Assembly (NCBI GenBank): GCA_017468465.1
Contig: JAFUIN010000004.1
Coordinates: forward strand, 1-41,425
Reading direction: 5' to 3'
Source of the DNA: Clostridia bacterium
Lineage (GTDB): Bacteria; Bacillota; Clostridia; UMGS1840
DNA: 41,425 nucleotides
Shown: positions 5,341 to 41,290 of the stretch, piece after piece
Layout of the letters: the number at the start of each line of letters is the position of its first letter
Position numbering within the stretch: position 1 is the first letter of the stretch
The notes under the pieces: generated by a model
What the model was told of the DNA's origin: nothing
Seen by the model: the letters and a program-made list of their open reading frames with translations, nothing else
Database searches by the model: none
Translations under genes and position numbers: made by a program

Positions 5341-5520
5341 AGCCCTTACACTTCAATCGGGGTGAACATCACACATTGTGCACTGTTTTTCAAGCCCTTA
5401 CTTTTTTAATGGGGTGAAGAAAAACAGATGCAGAATGGGGAATGTGAACCCGAAGCTGTATATGTTATACTGCGAGGGGTGAACATCACACATTGTGCGC
5501 TGTTTTTTCAAGTCCCCACC
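5341..5520. repeat. Diverged direct repeats between glnS and gltX
   Basis: Two near-identical blocks (about 5356-5395 and 5475-5515) share GGGGTGAACATCACACATTG and then TGC(A/G)CTGTTTTT and CAAG. Between them lies ACAGATGCAGAATGGGGAA followed by CCCGAAGCTGTATATG, which matches the core of the composite repeat found at 168-296 and 18683-18812. This is a diverged member of that family, lying just beyond the gltX stop. I see no gene or separate promoter for glnS here, so gltX-to-glnS readthrough is likely. Confidence 0.6.
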
Positions 5521-16800: not shown

Positions 16801-17709
16801 AATAGAGGTTGTGGAGCTTCCTCCAACGCCGCCTCCGCCGCCGCTGAAGCTCTGGCCTTTGAAGGTGTATTCAACAACTAAAACGTCTTTGGAAGCAACG
16901 CCGTTTAACACTGCGATTGCTTTTAATGTAGTAGTTTTGGAAATGGAAATTTCTTTTTTATATTTGGTGCTTTTTACAGTAGGAGTTTTGCCGTCTGTAG
17001 TATAGTAAATGTCAGCACCTTTCGTGGTTGTTGTAAGCGCAACCTTCTGTGTTTTGGTATATTCTCCACCAGTTACAGATGCTACGGGAGTTGCAGGGAT
17101 TATAGAATTTTCAGCACCTGCCAAGCCATTATAAGCCATCACCGCGATATCTCCACGGGTAGCCGGAGCACCTTTCACACCTTTTAAGCCGGTAGAAATA
17201 CCTTTTTGGGAAGCAACTTCCAAATATCCTTTGGACCAATCAGCAGGATCAACAACAATGCCGTCGCCAAAGCCCAAAGCACATACAACCATTTTGATTG
17301 CTTCTTCGTATTTCACCTTATCTTCCGGGCGGAATTTTCCATTTCCGTCACCGTTGATAATTTTTTCATTGGAGGCAATATTGATGTAGCCGCTTGCCCA
17401 ATGGTCGCTTGCCACATCGAAAAATTTGGTTTCGCCAACCGCTCCTTCAGCGGCGGTTTCTTTGTCAATCATTCTGCAAACAACAGCTGCCATTTCAGCT
17501 CTTGTAATGGACTGTTCTGCTCCGAAGGTTTTGTCCGGATAACCTTCTAAAATTTGCATCTGTGCTAATGCAGTCGCAGCTTTTGCATAATAGTCAGTTT
17601 CTTTCATATCCCAAAAAATCGTACTATTTTCATCAGCTGCAAAAATATTCATGGGTACCAATGACAAAAGCATCACAAGTGCCAAGAATATGCCAATAAA
17701 ACGTTTTAT
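13816..17709 (-). CDS. Large SLH-domain surface protein with beta-helix-like C-terminal half
   Basis: About 1,297 residues, secreted and held on the cell wall. From the N-terminus: signal peptide (KRFIGIFLALVMLLSLVP, cleavage after NIFA), three S-layer homology repeats (about residues 30-190; PDKTFGAEQSITRAEMA is typical), a chitobiase-C-terminal-like beta domain (YYTTDGKTPT), a Gly-rich linker, Ig-like domains, an InlB/Flg_new-type repeat (GYLFTGWNYD), then a long Thr/Asn-rich stretch of short beta strands resembling a right-handed beta-helix. No sortase signal or catalytic motif is seen. The proper signal peptide begins at an ATA codon (17709), ten bases after AAAGGAAG. The first conventional start would be TTG at 17685, which loses the basic N-region. 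Likely an adhesin or envelope protein; its ligand is unknown. Confidence 0.88.
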   Translation of the reverse strand: MKRFIGIFLALVMLLSLVPMNIFAADENSTIFWDMKETDYYAKAATALAQMQILEGYPDKTFGAEQSITRAEMAAVVCRMIDKETAAEGAVGETKFFDVASDHWASGYINIASNEKIINGDGNGKFRPEDKVKYEEAIKMVVCALGFGDGIVVDPADWSKGYLEVASQKGISTGLKGVKGAPATRGDIAVMAYNGLAGAENSIIPATPVASVTGGEYTKTQKVALTTTTKGADIYYTTDGKTPTVKSTKYKKEISISKTTTLKAIAVLNGVASKDVLVVEYTFKGQSFSGGGGGVGGSSTTSITGAKFLVNDAEVTTANVGDVLTFKTNPKDATGTVKWTVGGTEITVAGTTYTVTAFDMGKTIKAEITGTGDYEGKAAAECSVNSTTEVTAQDIMTDNADKSPVVLTDIDHTTFLDDEKNPVEVTGEATLTLSIENSENEQAPEEISAAQTLVVNGFIEASEGAVSAEDLEDVTATAVDVNLMLVPENPEEEAKAVHPVGKVTVTLSKEQLGLPEDADLTKYVFSASHTNKEGTKELVNGELVEIAGIWHVRFELNGLSTIWIGNVPPRTVNFYITEEDADNKVNSIGSVVVKFGDFTPTAKIPTASRSGYLFTGWNYDMTRTPIISNLEVHALWIAGEKVSADSISTVFSEDTTAVSFEVEDGLVSLDCEEPENLPASLDMKVTVTPPSNTAKYYVGTDASVVAAFNDANGYLDANAVDGISFEVNVTDENAIMIPSSITYYYKWIDSNGEVIAIQEVKAKIANGSDSATSMEYTSNVDRGIGTFEAYLVDNDDPSKDYVAYINNHLSGHALTGYVLYNNVSFDNYRTNNNFDAYDTLKFVFTPFAGESYSTSDTISVTGEYYDGEDYVDWNGGTYTISGENLIVTYPFSTVKTISDYADLTISVNDVQQRIDVDYWGNNYYEDQETITCATWAEVVTALGSVNNTKSYYIHCNDSSPITLSASLTIPANVTISIHETPSFTIANGATLTIAENKDYDTAADLYINNGNFIVEDGGSVAATYTGRDLGTTYLGSIRAKNITFESGSTVTVPEDTGISLNGNGVLTFANGSVVNNQAHFHTNNFDVVNLNGTINSMGGYPYFHDDEININGTINLNADRYYGRLELYGTINVGETGIINVQNTSSDRQYSNLEIYGPLTNKGTITVKNGANAEIMNNGFVNYNEGTISVGNGCTLTTSGTKYINTGVITGGGIIKATIGDDYTNYDDGTEYVDVGEDGYWDETLNEWVYNLSDYSRYKYTHDPAETVDAILYLSEIINMGEGTCELTIDAEEFPEK

Positions 17710-17719
17710 CTTATTTGGT

Positions 17720-17965
17720 CTTCCTTTCTTAAATGAAATTTTGGTTGCTGTTTTGAAACAAAGTTTCGCCCATCAAAATGAAAAGCCTCCAGTTTCACTT
17801 TTTATGGGAACCCCATCAGTGTTTTCAAAGCAACAAATGAATATATTTTATATTTTTTATGCAAAAAAATCCTCTCTGTGGCACTTGCTCGGTAACAGCC
17901 ATTGCAGAGCAAGAACAATACGATACCTGAAATTTATGATAATTCTGCAAGGATATCAACTGTTA
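17720..17965 (-). promoter_or_regulatory. Long 5' leader of the SLH gene
   Basis: About 260 nt separate the promoter from the start codon. On the minus strand it contains a stem CTTGCTC/GAGCAAG (near 17890-17915), a small hairpin ATGGG/CCCAT and a stretch of short complementary segments before the ribosome site. I could not match it to c-di-GMP or any other riboswitch class, so a regulatory role is only possible. Confidence 0.4.
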
Positions 17966-17970
17966 AAAAT

Positions 17971-18000
17971 AGTATATCATATAGTAAGCGCCATTGTCAA
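17971..18000 (-). promoter_or_regulatory. Promoter of the SLH protein gene
   Basis: Minus strand TTGACA (18000-17995) and TATACT (17976-17971) with an 18-base spacer; both hexamers are at or one step from consensus. The gene start is about 260 bases downstream. Confidence 0.75.
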
Positions 18001-18089: not shown

Positions 18090-18200
18090 TACCAAAAAAA
18101 CTGTAAAAAATGAAAAAGAGAAACAGGGCTGCTGTTTCTCTTTTTCCTCGTTTTGTGTGGTTGCACAAAGGAGCTATTTTTCAAATAAGCAACTTCATAA
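18090..18200 (+). other. Degenerate unit of the structured-RNA family
   Basis: Contains a perfect 15-base stem GAAAAAGAGAAACAG/CTGTTTCTCTTTTTC and then TTTGTGTGGTTGCACAAAGG and GAGCTAT, closely matching the 3' part of the RNA unit at 40340-40528 (TTTGTGTGGTTACAAAGGAG). It faces the complete unit on the opposite strand and their 3' ends meet near 18200. I see no good promoter and no terminator hairpin of its own, so it is probably a remnant. Confidence 0.5.
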
Positions 18201-18376
18201 AAAAAGTGCGCAGCAGAAGCCACGCACGAAAAATGCATTGCTCCTTGTCGCCAAACAAAACTTTACAAAACAAACACAAGATATGCGTATGCAAAGCAGA
18301 GCATGCATTTTTACCAAAAAAGGTATAAAAAAAACACACATCTAAGCGTTTGTTTCCTATTCAGTTTTGTTTGGCA
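18199..18376 (-). ncRNA. Structured small RNA, unit A of a local family
   Basis: About 178 nt read from a strong promoter to a UNCG-like terminator. A perfect 13-base stem GCCAAACAAAACT (18375-18363)/AGTTTTGTTTGGC (18262-18250) closes the fold, a second stem AAACAAAC/GTTTGTTT lies inside, and the apex carries TTGGTAAAAATGCATGCTCTG. The tail AAGGAGCAATGCATTTTTC is followed by a 9-base terminator stem and seven T. The apex and tail match the units at 40340-40528 and 40576-40725, while the stems differ in sequence but still pair. No coding potential is convincing. Function unknown. Confidence 0.72.
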
Positions 18377-18381
18377 TTTTT

Positions 18382-18410
18382 AGTATAGCATTTTTGTCCG
18401 CATTTGTCAA
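18382..18410 (-). promoter_or_regulatory. Promoter of RNA unit A
   Basis: Minus strand TTGACA (18410-18405), exactly 17 bases, then TATACT (18387-18382) preceded by TGC, an extended -10. It starts transcription a few bases before the closing stem of the RNA. Confidence 0.8.
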
Positions 18411-18468: not shown

Positions 18469-18812
18469 AAGGCGCAGAGAAGTGCTGCGCACGGCATAAG
18501 CTGCGCACGGCATAGGAAACAATGAGCAATGCAGAATGCACCATTCATAATTTTGGTGGCAGGCGTTGTCTGCATTGAAAATATGCGGGTCGTCGAGGAC
18601 GCCGACCCCTACAATGCTGCATGCAATGCTACGGCGAGTGATGAGGTTCATCCATTTGGCGCCTTTTATCAAAACCACAAACCAAGGCGCAGAGAAAAGG
18701 ATGCAGAATCCGGAAATCGAAAGAAAACCACCGGTTTTCTCTTCCCGAAGCTGTACCGTGTGTACAGCGAGTGGTGAGATTAACGGATTGTGCGCCTTTT
18801 ATCAAGCCGCAA
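18469..18812. repeat. Two composite repeats after nhaC
   Basis: Two copies of the AGGCGCAGAG...GCGCCTTTTATCAAGCCG family, at 18469-18670 and 18683-18812. The first carries an inserted block with GCGGGTCGTCGAGGACGCCG and CTGCATGCAATGCTACG, the same block found at 30702-30760 and, in part, at 1-30. The second has the variable inner hairpin GAAAACC/GGTTTTC. The right end touches the nhaC stop codon. No gene is seen here. Confidence 0.8.
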
Positions 18813-20432
18813 TTAAGCTTGTTTGTTTTTGGTAATTGCTTTCATCACAAACAAGGTTGCAACAGTGAGCACAATACCAACGGGGAGCAATACCCAAGCG
18901 TTGGGGATAAATGCTGCCAACAGGTATACCACGAAGGAAATCAGTGCTACGGTGATTGCATAAGGCAGCTGAGTAGACACGTGATTTACATGGTTAGACT
19001 GGCTTCCTGCAGAAGACATAATGGTGGTATCGGAAATGGGAGAGCAATGGTCACCGCAAACCGCACCTGCCAGACAAGCAGAAACGCCAATGATTAAGAA
19101 TTCGCTGTCACCCGGGAACATTGCAGTTACAATGGGAATCAAGATACCGAAGGTTCCCCAGGAGGTACCGGTAGAGAATGCCAGCACACAAGCAACCAGG
19201 AAGATGATTGCGGGTAAGAAGCCAGCCAGACCTGCTGCTGCAGAGTTCATTAAGCCTTCTACAAATTCAGCAGCGCCCAGTAAACCGGTCATATTTTTCA
19301 GGGCAGTTGCAAAGGTTAAGATTAAAATTGCAGGAACCATTGCATTGAAGCCCTTGGGGATACATTCCATTGCTTCTTTGAAGGTGATTACTCTTCTTGC
19401 AATTAAGTAAATAATGGTTACCAAAAGTGCTACAATAGCGCCCCAGGGTAAGCCAACCGTTGCATCGGTGTTACCAAACGCATCAATAAAGCTTGCGCCG
19501 GAGAAGAATCCGCCAACATATAATAAACCGATGATGGAAATCACAACCAGAACGATAACCGGCAGAATTAAGTCGATTACTTTACCTTTGGGATTTGCGC
19601 CTTCGTCAGCATCCGGAAATTCTTCTTTGCCGGAGGTAAACAGGTCACCTTTGGTCAAAGCGTTGTGTTCATGGAGCTTCATAGGGCCGTAATCAAATTT
19701 CATCAAAGTAATGGCAATAATGAACACTAAGGTTAAAAGAGAATAGAAGTTATAGGGAATTGCACGAACAAACAGCTCAATGCCGGAATAGCCGGTGCCT
19801 TCTGTAAATTCGGAAACGGCAGCTGCCCAGGAAGAAACCGGAGCAATCATACAAATAGGTGCAGCAGTTGCATCAATTAAATATGCAAATTTTGCACGGG
19901 AAATGTTATGACGGTCGGTTACCGGACGCATTACACTACCAACAGTTAAGCAGTTGAAATAGTCGTCAATAAAGATTAACACACCCAAAACAAAGGTGGC
20001 AAACATTGCACCCACACGGGATTTGATGTTTTTTTCTGCCCATCTTCCGAATGCGGCAGAACCGCCTGCTTTGTTGATTAAGGCAACCATAGCGCCTAAA
20101 ATCACCAGGAAAATGAAAATGCCTGCGGTGCCGGAAACTGCAGAAATGAGCCCGTCGTTAACCACTTTGTCCAAAGCGCCAACGGGGTTCCAGTTTACAG
20201 CCAGAAGACCGCCCAGCACAATACCAATGAATAAAGAAGAATACACTTCTTTGGTAATGAGGGCAAGTGCGATTGCCACCAACGGCGGAACCATTGCCCA
20301 GAAAGTTGCGAAATAATTGCTAACAGGAGCTTCGTCTCCGGTTGCAAATGCCACCATCGCAGTGCCCAGCATTAAAAACAGGGTCAAAAGCGAGGTCAGC
20401 ACACTTTTCTTTTTGAAAATTTTCATTTTCAA
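18813..20432 (-). CDS. nhaC: Na+/H+ antiporter, NhaC family
   Basis: A 539-residue polytopic membrane protein that exchanges sodium for protons. It has about a dozen hydrophobic segments and the NhaC family patterns FIDDYFNCLTVGSVMRPVTD near residue 155, MIAPVSSWAAA near 196, STGTSWGTFGILIPI near 430 and GDHCSPISDTTIMSSAGS near 466. An extra N-terminal segment (MKMKIFKKKSVLTSLLTLFL, then AFATGDEA) looks like a signal peptide before the first core helix, which is common in clostridial members. ATG follows AGGAGG. A homologous family exchanges malate/lactate or other ions, so substrate is by family only. Confidence 0.9.
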   Translation of the reverse strand: MKMKIFKKKSVLTSLLTLFLMLGTAMVAFATGDEAPVSNYFATFWAMVPPLVAIALALITKEVYSSLFIGIVLGGLLAVNWNPVGALDKVVNDGLISAVSGTAGIFIFLVILGAMVALINKAGGSAAFGRWAEKNIKSRVGAMFATFVLGVLIFIDDYFNCLTVGSVMRPVTDRHNISRAKFAYLIDATAAPICMIAPVSSWAAAVSEFTEGTGYSGIELFVRAIPYNFYSLLTLVFIIAITLMKFDYGPMKLHEHNALTKGDLFTSGKEEFPDADEGANPKGKVIDLILPVIVLVVISIIGLLYVGGFFSGASFIDAFGNTDATVGLPWGAIVALLVTIIYLIARRVITFKEAMECIPKGFNAMVPAILILTFATALKNMTGLLGAAEFVEGLMNSAAAGLAGFLPAIIFLVACVLAFSTGTSWGTFGILIPIVTAMFPGDSEFLIIGVSACLAGAVCGDHCSPISDTTIMSSAGSQSNHVNHVSTQLPYAITVALISFVVYLLAAFIPNAWVLLPVGIVLTVATLFVMKAITKNKQA

Positions 20433-27549: not shown

Positions 27550-27568
27550 AGTTTTTAACAAATGCTGT

Positions 27569-27690
27569 AAGGCGCAGAGAAAATGGTTCAAAATGTTGAA
27601 ACCGAACCCGCAGGGAAGTTCCCGAAGCCGTACCGCGTGTACGGCGAGTGGTTCGGTTGCGGCATTATGGACCATTTTATCAAGCCGTAA
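27569..27690. repeat. Composite repeat after uvrA
   Basis: One copy of the AGGCGCAGAGAAAA...TTTTATCAAGCCGTAA family, with the inner hairpin GCCGTAC/GTACGGC and the variable arms GGTTCAAAATG and CATTATGGACC that partly pair. It ends ten bases before the uvrA stop codon. Confidence 0.8.
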
Positions 27691-30559: not shown

Positions 30560-31008
30560 TTGCTAACCGTAAAACCCTATAATTTTGCTGCCTTTACACA
30601 AGTAAATGAGCATTTCAGAACAATCCTCCATCCGAAGAAACGAAGTAAATGAAGAATAGTGAATAATTTCGGTGCCAGTCGTTTGCCTGCATAAAAAATA
30701 TGCGGGTCGTCGAGGACGCCGACCCCTACAATGCTGCATGCAATGCTACGCCGAGAGGGGGTGAGTTTTGCTCTAACCAAGGCTCCTTTTATCAAGCAGA
30801 AAATAGGCGCAGAGAAAATTGACGAAAATTCGTCAACCGAACCCGTAGGGGTTACCCGAAGGCGTACACAGGTACGCCGAGAGGTGAGGTTGGCGGATAG
30901 CAAAAGGCATTTTTATCCAAAATTTGCAAACTGCAAATTTTCACTTTATAAAATAATATAGAATAAATCCCTATGCCTTTTGCGGTCTCGGCAATTTTAT
31001 CAAGCCTA
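30560..31008. repeat. Composite repeats between uvrB and uvrA
   Basis: Two repeat blocks. About 30640-30795 contains GCGGGTCGTCGAGGACGCCG and CTGCATGCAATGCTACG as at 18580-18640. 30805-31008 starts AGGCGCAGAGAAAATTGACG, has hairpin GACGAAAATTCGTC, GGCGTAC/GTACGCC, and AAAATTTGC/GCAAATTTT, and ends TTTTATCAAGCCTA at the uvrB stop codon. Its right half matches 1-165. No gene or clear promoter for uvrA is visible in it. Confidence 0.78.
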
Positions 31009-39353: not shown

Positions 39354-40232
39354 ATGAATGTGTTGGCATTTGGCGAAATTTTGTTTGATTGTTACCCCAC
39401 TGACGAAAAAATCGGCGGTGCACCGTTTAACTTTTGTGCCCATCTTGCACAGCTGGGTGCAAACAGCTATCTATACAGCGCTGTCGGTAATGATAATCTT
39501 GGGAAAAAAGCCTTGGAAAAAGCTTTGTTTTTCGGTGTGAATACCCGCTATATACAAACCTCAAAAGCCCACCCCACCGGCATTTGTAAAGTGTCCTATC
39601 AAGGTGACACCCCCACCTATGATTTGAGCCGGATTTCTGCTTATGATGCCATTTCTTTTCAGCCGCTCCTCCCAACCCACTCCTTTGATTTACTTTATTT
39701 CGGCACCTTGGCACTTCGTGAAGAACGCTCAGAAAAAACTTTGGAACAGCTTCTTTCCCACGGAAAATTCGGCACGGTATTTTTTGACATCAATCTCCGT
39801 CAGAACTACTTTTCCAAAGAAACAGTAGAAAAAGGGCTGGTTGCCTCTGACATTGTGAAAATGAATCGGGAAGAATTTGCTTATGTAAAAGAAATTTCAG
39901 CTACAAAAGCTACCGATAACCAAACTGCATTGCAGAAAATCAGCACACTTTACGGCATCAAAACCGCCATTCTCACTTTAGATAAAGAGGGTGCCTGCGT
40001 TTATGACAAAGAAAAAGGTTTTTTCTTTGCACCGCCAAAGGAAACAAGCTTTGTTTCTGCAGTGGGTGCCGGAGACAGCTTTTGTGCCTGTTTTTTGTAT
40101 CACCTGTTCCATGGTGCGTCCATTTTAACCGCATTGGATAAGGCAAGCACTCTATCCTCCTATGTGGTGTCCCGTGAAGAAGCAGTGCCAGCCTATCCCG
40201 ACTGGCTGAAACAGGAATTAAAAAGTGTTTGA
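39354..40232 (+). CDS. PfkB-family sugar kinase, probably fructokinase
   Basis: A 292-residue ribokinase-fold enzyme. The substrate-binding motif GGAPFNFCAHLAQLG lies at residues 22-36, NLRQNYF near 150 and the catalytic GAGDSF near 238, where Asp is the base. The N-terminal pattern GEILFDCYP and GGAPFN are typical of fructokinases, which make fructose 6-phosphate from fructose and ATP. ATG at 39354 follows GGAAGTG. It is divergent from the GH26-like lipoprotein, so both may serve carbohydrate use, but no sugar transporter is nearby. Confidence 0.88.
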   Translation: MNVLAFGEILFDCYPTDEKIGGAPFNFCAHLAQLGANSYLYSAVGNDNLGKKALEKALFFGVNTRYIQTSKAHPTGICKVSYQGDTPTYDLSRISAYDAISFQPLLPTHSFDLLYFGTLALREERSEKTLEQLLSHGKFGTVFFDINLRQNYFSKETVEKGLVASDIVKMNREEFAYVKEISATKATDNQTALQKISTLYGIKTAILTLDKEGACVYDKEKGFFFAPPKETSFVSAVGAGDSFCACFLYHLFHGASILTALDKASTLSSYVVSREEAVPAYPDWLKQELKSV

Positions 40233-40265
40233 AGTTTTTTTGCTCAATTCAGCAATCTATTTTTG

Positions 40266-40292
40266 TGCGTAGCTTCGGCTGCGCATTTTTTT
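40266..40292 (+). terminator. UUCG terminator after pfkB, remnant of an RNA unit
   Basis: TGCGTAGC-TTCG-GCTGCGCA followed by seven T. It is preceded by AGCAATCTATTTTTG, which matches the tail of the RNA family (AGCAATGCATTTTTC in unit A), so it is probably the 3' end of a lost unit that now terminates pfkB. Confidence 0.8.
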
Positions 40293-40304: not shown

Positions 40305-40333
40305 TTGTTTTTTTCAATAAACTATGCTACACT
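40305..40333 (+). promoter_or_regulatory. Promoter of RNA unit B
   Basis: TTGTTT (40305-40310), 17 bases, TACACT (40328-40333), preceded by TGC (extended -10). The preceding AAAGACTTG is identical before unit C. Confidence 0.7.
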
Positions 40334-40339
40334 ATAAAT

Positions 40340-40528
40340 AACCACACAAATCAAATCGCCTATGATTTGACACACAAAATATTTCAAAAGTATGCAGATT
40401 TACTATTGGTAAAAATGCATGCTCTGTTTTCGCATACTTTTGGTGTTTTGTGCTCAAAGATGTTGAATTTGTGTGGTTACAAAGGAGCTATGCATTTTTC
40501 ATGCGTAGCTTCGGCTACGCATTTTTTT
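40340..40528 (+). ncRNA. Structured small RNA, unit B
   Basis: About 189 nt. Closing stem AACCACACAAAT (40340-40351)/ATTTGTGTGGTT (40467-40478), a side hairpin TCAAATC/GATTTGA, inner stems CACAAAA/TTTTGTG and CAAAAGTATGC/GCATACTTTTG, apex TTGGTAAAAATGCATGCTCTG, tail AAGGAGCTATGCATTTTTC and a terminator ATGCGTAGC-TTCG-GCTACGCAT with T run. The apex and tail agree with units A and C, but the stems do not agree in sequence and still pair. A short frame reading MHFSCVASATHFF across the terminator is not considered a gene. Confidence 0.75.
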
Positions 40529-40540
40529 ATTGGGAAAGAC

Positions 40541-40569
40541 TTGTTTTTTTCGATAAAATATGTTATACT
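40541..40569 (+). promoter_or_regulatory. Promoter of RNA unit C
   Basis: TTGTTT (40541-40546), 17 bases, TATACT (40564-40569), preceded by TGT. Nearly the same as the unit B promoter, 236 bases downstream of it. Confidence 0.75.
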
Positions 40570-40575
40570 GATTTT

Positions 40576-40725
40576 GCAACATAGTTTCATATATGCAAAA
40601 CGAGAGCATACTTTTGTTAAAAATGTATGCTTTGGTTTCATTTATCTCGTTTTGCAGGTAAACTATGTTGCAGTAGTGACCGAAGTGATACATTTTTAGT
40701 GCGTAGCTACGGCTACGCATTTTTT
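40576..40725 (+). ncRNA. Structured small RNA, unit C
   Basis: About 150 nt. Three stacked perfect stems: GCAACATAGTTT (40576-40587)/AAACTATGTTGC (40660-40671), GCAAAACGAG (40595-40604)/CTCGTTTTGC (40646-40655), GCATAC (40606-40611)/GTATGC (40625-40630). The apical region TTGTTAAAAATGTATGCTTTG resembles that of units A and B. The terminator is TGCGTAGC-TACG-GCTACGCA plus six T; TACG is another UNCG tetraloop. It ends four bases before the ribosome site of the Cys-rich gene, so it may act as that gene's leader. Confidence 0.75.
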
Positions 40726-40745
40726 ATTTGGAGGACTGGAATAAA

Positions 40746-40946
40746 ATGATTATTGATATCACAGGAATTGAGTTGGTTCCCGGAAACCACGGGAAAGACT
40801 GCCCCGGAAACGGTGAAAACGGCAATGAATGCTGTTGCGACGAATGCAATTACTTATGTTGTTGTTTAGAATATTTTAAGCCGCAAGACTGTAAAAATTG
40901 TGTCCATACAGAATGTCCTCGAAACGAATCGCAGAAATTGCGTTGA
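40746..40946 (+). CDS. Small Cys-rich protein, unknown function
   Basis: Sixty-six residues with 11 cysteines, grouped as ECCCDEC, LCCC and DCKNC...TEC, after an N-terminal segment MIIDITGIELVPGNHGKDCPG. No signal peptide or membrane helix. The cysteine pattern suggests metal binding or an iron-sulfur or zinc site; I do not recognise a named family. ATG at 40746 is chosen because GGAGG lies 11-12 bases upstream; TTG at 40728 is an in-frame alternative but would sit inside that site. It directly follows the terminator of RNA unit C, with no other promoter seen. Confidence 0.72.
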   Translation: MIIDITGIELVPGNHGKDCPGNGENGNECCCDECNYLCCCLEYFKPQDCKNCVHTECPRNESQKLR

Positions 40947-41164: not shown

Positions 41165-41203
41165 TAAAAAAAGATGAAATCCATAAGGATTTCATCTTTT
41201 TTA
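41165..41203. terminator. Bidirectional terminator
   Basis: AAAGATGAAATCC/GGATTTCATCTTT stem, loop ATAA, with A and T runs on both sides. Confidence 0.85.
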
Positions 41204-41218
41204 TTTTTTCCACTAATA

Positions 41219-41290
41219 TAAGGCGCAGAGAGTGCTGCGCACGGCACATGGACGAATGAATCATGAATAATGAATAGTGAATAATGGATC
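41219..41290. repeat. Fragment of the composite repeat family
   Basis: AAGGCGCAGAGAGTGCTGCGCACGGCA matches the left end of the copy at 18469, then the sequence passes into ATGAATCATGAATAATGAATAG, a simple imperfect repeat. The rest of the unit is missing, apparently replaced by the insertion sequence that begins at about 41293. Confidence 0.65.

Follow-up and report, generated by a model that had tools for sequence, protein, structure and literature searches.

Unit A, an RNA encoded on the minus strand of 41,425 nt of DNA from a Clostridia bacterium (the window, meaning the whole stretch of DNA that was analysed), belongs to a family of promoter-plus-leader cassettes that, judged from their sequences, probably act as transcription attenuators for genes of exported and small proteins. 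The units share one anatomy and one type of promoter, most of them lie in cis ahead of a gene, and each of their alternative helices shows complementarity that is specific to its own unit. The original prediction recognized three related RNAs in the window; a cis-leader role, apex-tail pairing, and an antiterminator were no part of it.

The coordinates first given for unit A with its promoter (18199-18410) were correct, the unit itself lying at 18375-18199 on the minus strand, and the promoter described for it, TTGACA-17-TATACT with TGC ahead of the -10 box, was present on that strand. The 13-bp closing stem P1, GCCAAACAAAACT/AGTTTTGTTTGGC, was likewise found at 18375-18363 / 18262-18250, and it differs from the stems of units B and C, as claimed. 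Unit A is composed of the following parts:

18382-18410, minus strand: promoter (-35 box TTGACA at 18410-18405, 17 nt, -10 box TATACT at 18387-18382, TGC before the -10 box)
18199-18375, minus strand: whole attenuator-like RNA without an adjacent gene (from the fold and the R1 model, 141.3 bits)
18363-18375, minus strand: 5' strand of P1, GCCAAACAAAACT, at the predicted RNA 5' end
18321-18340, minus strand: strand 0, which would pair locally with the apex from its 5' side (bounds approximate; from the sequence and the family swap test)
18297-18313, minus strand: strand 1, the apex, UAAAAAUGCAUGCUCUG (from pattern search and swap tests)
18250-18262, minus strand: 3' strand of P1, AGTTTTGTTTGGC (from the fold and alignment)
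18229-18248, minus strand: strand 2, the tail, ACAAGGAGCAAUGCAUUUUU, with complementarity both to strand 1 and to the 5' half of the terminator
18199-18227, minus strand: predicted terminator (hairpin strands 3 and 4 at 18227-18206, T run at 18205-18199)

Between the P1 strands the apex reads TTGGTAAAAATGCATGCTCTG, and after AGTTTTGTTTGGC the tail reads ACAAGGAGCAATGCATTTTT, with the hairpin and T run next. The fold of unit A reached -69.3 kcal/mol (z -7.4), and none of 200 shuffles was equally good. The calculated duplexes of its tail were -18.2 kcal/mol with the middle segment (strand 1) and -15.0 kcal/mol with the terminator 5' half. Unit A, scored at 141.3 bits by covariance model R1, was itself one of the seven founders of that model.

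Two further complete units and two remnants were located in the window:

40305-40333, plus strand: promoter of unit B, TTGTTT-17-TACACT (from the sequence)
40339-40528, plus strand: unit B, complete (strand 1 at 40410-40426, tail at 40480-40499, terminator at 40501-40528)
40574-40726, plus strand: unit C, complete (strand 1 at 40618-40635, UAAAAAUGUAUGCUUUGG; tail at 40678-40697; terminator at 40699-40726)
18152-18183, plus strand: remnant D, which faces unit A and retains the 3' strand of P1 and a shortened tail from a unit since lost
40206-40292, plus strand: second remnant, tail and terminator (36 bits), at the end of a pfkB-type gene and ahead of unit B

Units B and C stand in tandem, C beginning 46 nt past B, and fold at -62.9 kcal/mol (z -6.3) and -57.8 kcal/mol (z -8.8), respectively. 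The tail of unit C is compensated to CCGAAG..AUACAUUUUU, matching its changed strand 1. Local alignments scored 103 for A-B, 53 for A-C, and 68 for B-C, against maxima of 35, 32, and 32 in dinucleotide shuffles (0 of 1000 for each pair), and the apex pairs and tail pairs each exceeded shuffles by themselves (0 of 2000 each). Because alignments, apices, and tails all went beyond shuffled sequence, the proposed kinship of the three copies stood. The degenerate unit said to meet unit A on the plus strand is real (alignment score 42, shuffle maximum 31), but it is merely a 3' remnant of approximately 32 nt, remnant D, with neither apex nor 5' stem. Tandem units were also noted at loci L045, L082, L032, and L185 besides the B-C pair (40339-40726), and those inspected each carried its own promoter, which would mean two-input control of one gene. 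The window additionally contains a dispersed intergenic repeat (GGCGCAGAGAAAAGG..., CCGAAGCxGTACCG...TACGGCGAG...TGCGCC) that occurs at least six times, frequently next to the ends of genes (150-424, 5359-5507, 18612-18817, 27551-27677, 30683-31006, and 41195-41240).

A pattern search of the source genome (G000; 1.51 Mb, 32 contigs) yielded further copies, and model R1 was built from units A, B, and C and four units from elsewhere, with P1 and the terminator as its only structure. The source genome holds at least 14 copies at E<=1e-4. Within the class, R1 matched at least 52 of 196 genomes (E<=0.01); in a phylum-wide sample, 2 of 299 genomes matched at E<=0.001, namely the source genome and one weak match of the same class. 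A second model, R2, built from 108 aligned matches, found the family in at least 98 of the 391 genomes sampled from this class (E<=1e-4). Copies per genome ranged from 1 to 24 among the matches listed, with 18 genomes scored more fully; per-genome counts otherwise rest on the best 14 (R1, class), 9 (R1, phylum), and 7 (R2, class) scored candidates. Matches among named records included Oscillospiraceae, Ruminococcaceae, and Monoglobus assemblies and Lachnospiraceae MD329; a copy is also present in a named strain, Ruminococcus bromii ATCC 27255. R1 also matched 74 of the 82 sources fetched by pattern; the eight without a match were two viral contigs, Mariprofundaceae, Pseudomonadota, Pseudoalteromonas, Marinomonas, a bacterium, and Clostridium UBA1056. 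Neither of the two pattern matches on viral contigs was scored by R1, and phage records contained nothing matching B and C.

The alternative helices were examined by comparing the duplex energy of each unit's own strands with that of partner-swapped strands in 96 non-redundant units, from which near-duplicates had been thinned, with statistics that ignore kinship. Segments were cut by P1 and the terminator only, so that the alignment presupposed none of the other pairings. P1 itself, compared in an earlier run, gave -16.66 kcal/mol with its own partner and -8.22 kcal/mol when swapped, which supports replacement of the stems with pairing kept. The local helix between strand 0 and the apex (0:1) gave -6.62 for own and -5.20 for swapped partners (z -8.3), the apex-tail helix (1:2) -15.86 and -11.91 (z -15.4), the helix of the tail with the terminator 5' half (2:3) -15.91 and -12.09 (z -13.3), and the terminator hairpin (3:4) -13.24 and -8.39 (z -20.8); for all four helices, 0 of 5000 permutations reached the own-pairing value. 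Both halves of 1:2 contributed (X:T2, z -12.7; W:T1, z -8.5), as did both parts of 2:3 (T1:terminator loop, z -12.2; T2:5' arm, z -4.4), and in the weaker signals, W:T1 and T2:terminator arm, own pairing beat 90% of the others in 20 and 26 of the 96 units. Non-adjacent controls were null (strand 0 region:tail, z +1.7; apex end W:terminator, z -0.5), and the earlier run, on whole segments, gave the same pattern together with three null controls. Standard pairs made up 93.5% of those between apex and tail at the four positions flanking the A run (shuffles: mean 80.7%, maximum 85.4%), and slid registers of this flank gave 4-67%. The replacements include U-A, U-G, C-G, and G-C pairs (for example, UGCA/UGCA, UACA/UGUA, CACA/UGUG, UGUA/UACA, and GUAU/AUAC), and pairs are broken in several members (for example, UGUA/AACA). 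The apex, the tail, and the terminator 5' half are each used twice; therefore, the helices are mutually exclusive. In nested minimum-energy folds, the terminator appeared in 49 of the 96 units and the antiterminator in 47, so that complementarity and folding alike present terminator and antiterminator as exclusive alternatives. These pairing and fold tests covered units other than L031:1553 (antisense), L109:1768 (partial), and sequences shorter than 140 nt.

The -10 box ended exactly 4 nt ahead of P1 in 140 of 180 units, TGn was present in 165 of 180, and at most two mismatches to TTGACA/TATAAT occurred in 100 of 180 compared with approximately 1% of shuffled upstream sequences. Transcription generally starts approximately 7 nt after the -10 box, and with the fixed spacing this places the start of the RNA flush with P1; for unit A the predicted start is G 18375. 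A Shine-Dalgarno (SD) sequence with an ORF start lay 8-60 nt past the terminator (median 20 nt) in 121 of the 173 units that had 200 nt or more of downstream sequence. The corresponding counts were 375 of 4957 for random positions within these loci and 6 of 170 for the opposite end and strand. The count remained 73 of 106 when the pattern-fetched set was omitted. The gene-start count covered units other than L031:1553, L109:1768, the remnant at window position 40206, and six units with less than 200 nt of contig; the promoter count was made without L031:1553, L109:1768, L073:2681, L062, and units with less than 45 nt upstream. Loci L120-L127 and later matches among named records stood outside the pairing, gene-start, fold, and promoter counts.

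We considered whether the units are instead free-standing small RNAs, some of which would use the apex and tail to act on further transcripts or on one another. Nearly every unit carries its own predicted promoter and terminator, 52 of the 173 units (A included) have no gene start by our rule, and the apex and tail sequences common to the copies would permit cross-pairing. However, a gene start follows 70% of the units, mostly 15-25 nt beyond the T run, and a free RNA needs no complementarity between tail and terminator, yet such complementarity is conserved. We therefore regard this explanation as unlikely. Attenuation through a leader peptide, in which a ribosome would read the leader from the tail's GGAG..AUG as its start, appears highly improbable: GGAGxxAUG occurs in many tails, but the gap between GGAG and AUG is approximately 2 nt, one or both elements are missing in units C, E, and H, and the unit starts at the predicted RNA 5' end, which leaves no room for another SD sequence.

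The genes behind the units, read here as attenuator-controlled, encode recurrent kinds of protein. Among the matches listed for 75 downstream proteins of the first set, LRR_5 occurred 14 times, the copper amine oxidase N-terminal domain 8 times, and MazE/AbrB-like domains 3 times, along with single M23, S11, SLH, CHAP, and other domains. Proteins shorter than 100 aa made up 47 of 121, and by a simple rule an export-type N terminus was present in 46 of 74 longer proteins versus 91 of 426 other ORFs of the same loci. Behind 13 of the 121 units lay the gene of a Cys-rich protein, 61-83 aa long and containing a CCC run. The gene led by unit C is of this family, which is also found behind other units of the source genome:

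40746-40946, plus strand: gene of a Cys-rich 66-aa protein, its ATG 19 nt past the end of unit C

The Cys-rich proteins follow the pattern PGN.GKDCxGNG...ECCCxECxY, with several copies per genome behind leaders (window 40746-40946; L004, L058, L060, L062, and others). No named family was found for the protein among the PADLOC matches listed or among the 25 families listed each from Pfam, NCBIfam, and PHROGs, and no relative was present among PDB sequences.

The family as a whole has a promoter upstream and a predicted intrinsic terminator before a gene start; in unit A the gene start is missing. The adjacent gene of unit A is lost or was never present, and without it unit A would now yield only a short terminated RNA. 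A role as leader of the SLH-domain gene approximately 0.5 kb beyond was rejected because this gene has its own promoter-like site (TTGACA-18-TATACT at 18000-17971, by inspection) and because its homologue in genome G002 (57% identity over approximately the first 284 residues) has no unit upstream (L267, no match). The SLH-domain ORF (17685-18000, minus strand) shows no ATG or GTG where one is expected after AAGGAAG (AAATAAGATAAAACG); its start codon is changed or unusual, with a leader of approximately 290 nt from TTGACA-18-TATACT.

The original prediction further proposed a mobile or fast-evolving regulatory RNA, and the regulatory character and the replacement of stems held up, whereas autonomous mobility did not. 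It had proposed comparing flanks for empty sites, and the informative congener, G003, lacked the whole block and not the RNA alone. In that genome (C18, L265), the antiporter and P-type ATPase genes lie less than 200 nt apart, and a block of approximately 5 kb (window 13.8-18.75 kb), which holds units A and D together with the SLH gene, is absent. Only G003 kept both flanking genes in order; in G004 and G002 the genes downstream of the antiporter are unrelated. The absence in G003 points to gain or loss of a gene block, and hopping by the RNA alone is not supported. There is very little chance, accordingly, that the units are small MITE-like elements with the closing stem as inverted ends. Such elements would account for copies dispersed over both strands, the inverted ends, and the remnants (D and 40206-40292), but the stem sequences are not conserved termini, differing among copies with compensation; the promoter lies outside the stem and goes with the unit at fixed spacing (140 of 180); the distance to the gene is fixed; and in G003 more than the RNA is missing. 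The MITE class was rejected, as neither conserved terminal inverted repeats nor, in G003, an empty site cut at the element ends was found.

For the attenuator reading, we propose the following mechanism from the sequences. RNA polymerase would start flush with P1, and the apex could pair either with the strand just 5' of it as a local hairpin (0:1) or with the tail (1:2). The latter would form a long pseudoknot, the tail being downstream of P1. Alternatively, the terminator's 5' arm and loop could take up the tail (2:3), giving an antiterminator that would exclude 3:4. OFF would then correspond to 1:2 plus 3:4 and ON to 0:1 plus 2:3, and some factor (a metabolite, protein, or RNA) that fixes the apex in its local form would turn the gene on. 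Switching in the cell, OFF as the default, and such an apex-holding factor are what we infer. With no cost set on the pseudoknot, summed energies favoured OFF in 95 of 96 units (mean advantage 10.5 kcal/mol); a cost of +8 kcal/mol lowered this to 74 of 96. Because the sum leaves out the pseudoknot cost, the direction of the switch is a guess. The apex A run was 5 in 89 of 96 units, a figure biased by the anchor, which required an A run of at least 4; the tail U run was at least 5 in 96 of 96, and the strand 0 U run at least 4 in 76 of 96. Since G-C pairs would pair equally well, these tracts may point to the binding of a factor or to a U-A-U triplex. A U-A-U triple helix formed from the U5/A5/U5 tracts upon displacement of strand 0 is speculation. 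The SAM-II and telomerase pseudoknots carry U-A-U triplexes, and the units may similarly combine an A:U helix and an adjoining U-rich strand within a pseudoknot; unlike in those RNAs, the triplex here is a possibility raised by the tracts alone.

Searches at gathering score against Rfam 15 (4227 families) revealed no family matching the units, and the window gave only a tRNA. At a permissive threshold, units A and B/C and locus L024 gave matches far below gathering scores only, and 20 further loci gave no match over a unit. 6S RNA was ruled out, with no RF00013 match to the window or units, as was the T-box, with no T-box family match at gathering score. A Gut-1 RNA (RF01706) was noted at L025 (1906-1977, minus strand), with a unit following a few hundred bases downstream. 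No description of the family was found in the literature searched, including passages of PMC2965389 and PMC8040213, and the RNA family may exist without a name among published candidates such as the 3161 of PMC8040213. Transcription attenuators are a known kind; this RNA family and its apical-loop pseudoknot relay are apparently undescribed.

The trp leader is a strand-exchange transcription attenuator (1:2, 2:3, 3:4), and the units resemble it in forming a chain of exclusive helices that ends in a terminator ahead of a gene. They differ in that no leader peptide was found in them, in the extra strand 0, in their many unrelated target genes, and in strand 1, which lies within the apical loop that caps a long stem, so that 1:2 is a pseudoknot. 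With terminator riboswitches (Rfam cis-reg), they share the leader position, the choice between antiterminator and terminator, and several copies per genome, but they have no Rfam 15 match, and the genes behind them encode exported and small proteins rather than the members of a single pathway. T-box leaders are large, occur many times per genome in Gram-positive bacteria, and carry an antiterminator; the units share all of these features, but no tRNA-pairing element was identified in them.

If this reading is right, a regulatory RNA without an Rfam entry is present in about a quarter of the sampled genomes of the class, with up to 24 copies per genome, and in gut bacteria it links the genes of LRR surface proteins with those of enzymes of the cell wall and of tiny proteins. 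A shared switch would imply that there is a single signal to look for. More tentatively, and with the odds somewhat against it, the units may constitute a new leader class that could be the most frequent attenuator in many gut Clostridia not yet cultured; in it, a five-strand relay (0:1, 1:2, 2:3, 3:4), with a U5/A5/U5 U-A-U triplex in the OFF state, would let one shared factor set a regulon of exported, tiny Cys-rich, and other proteins.
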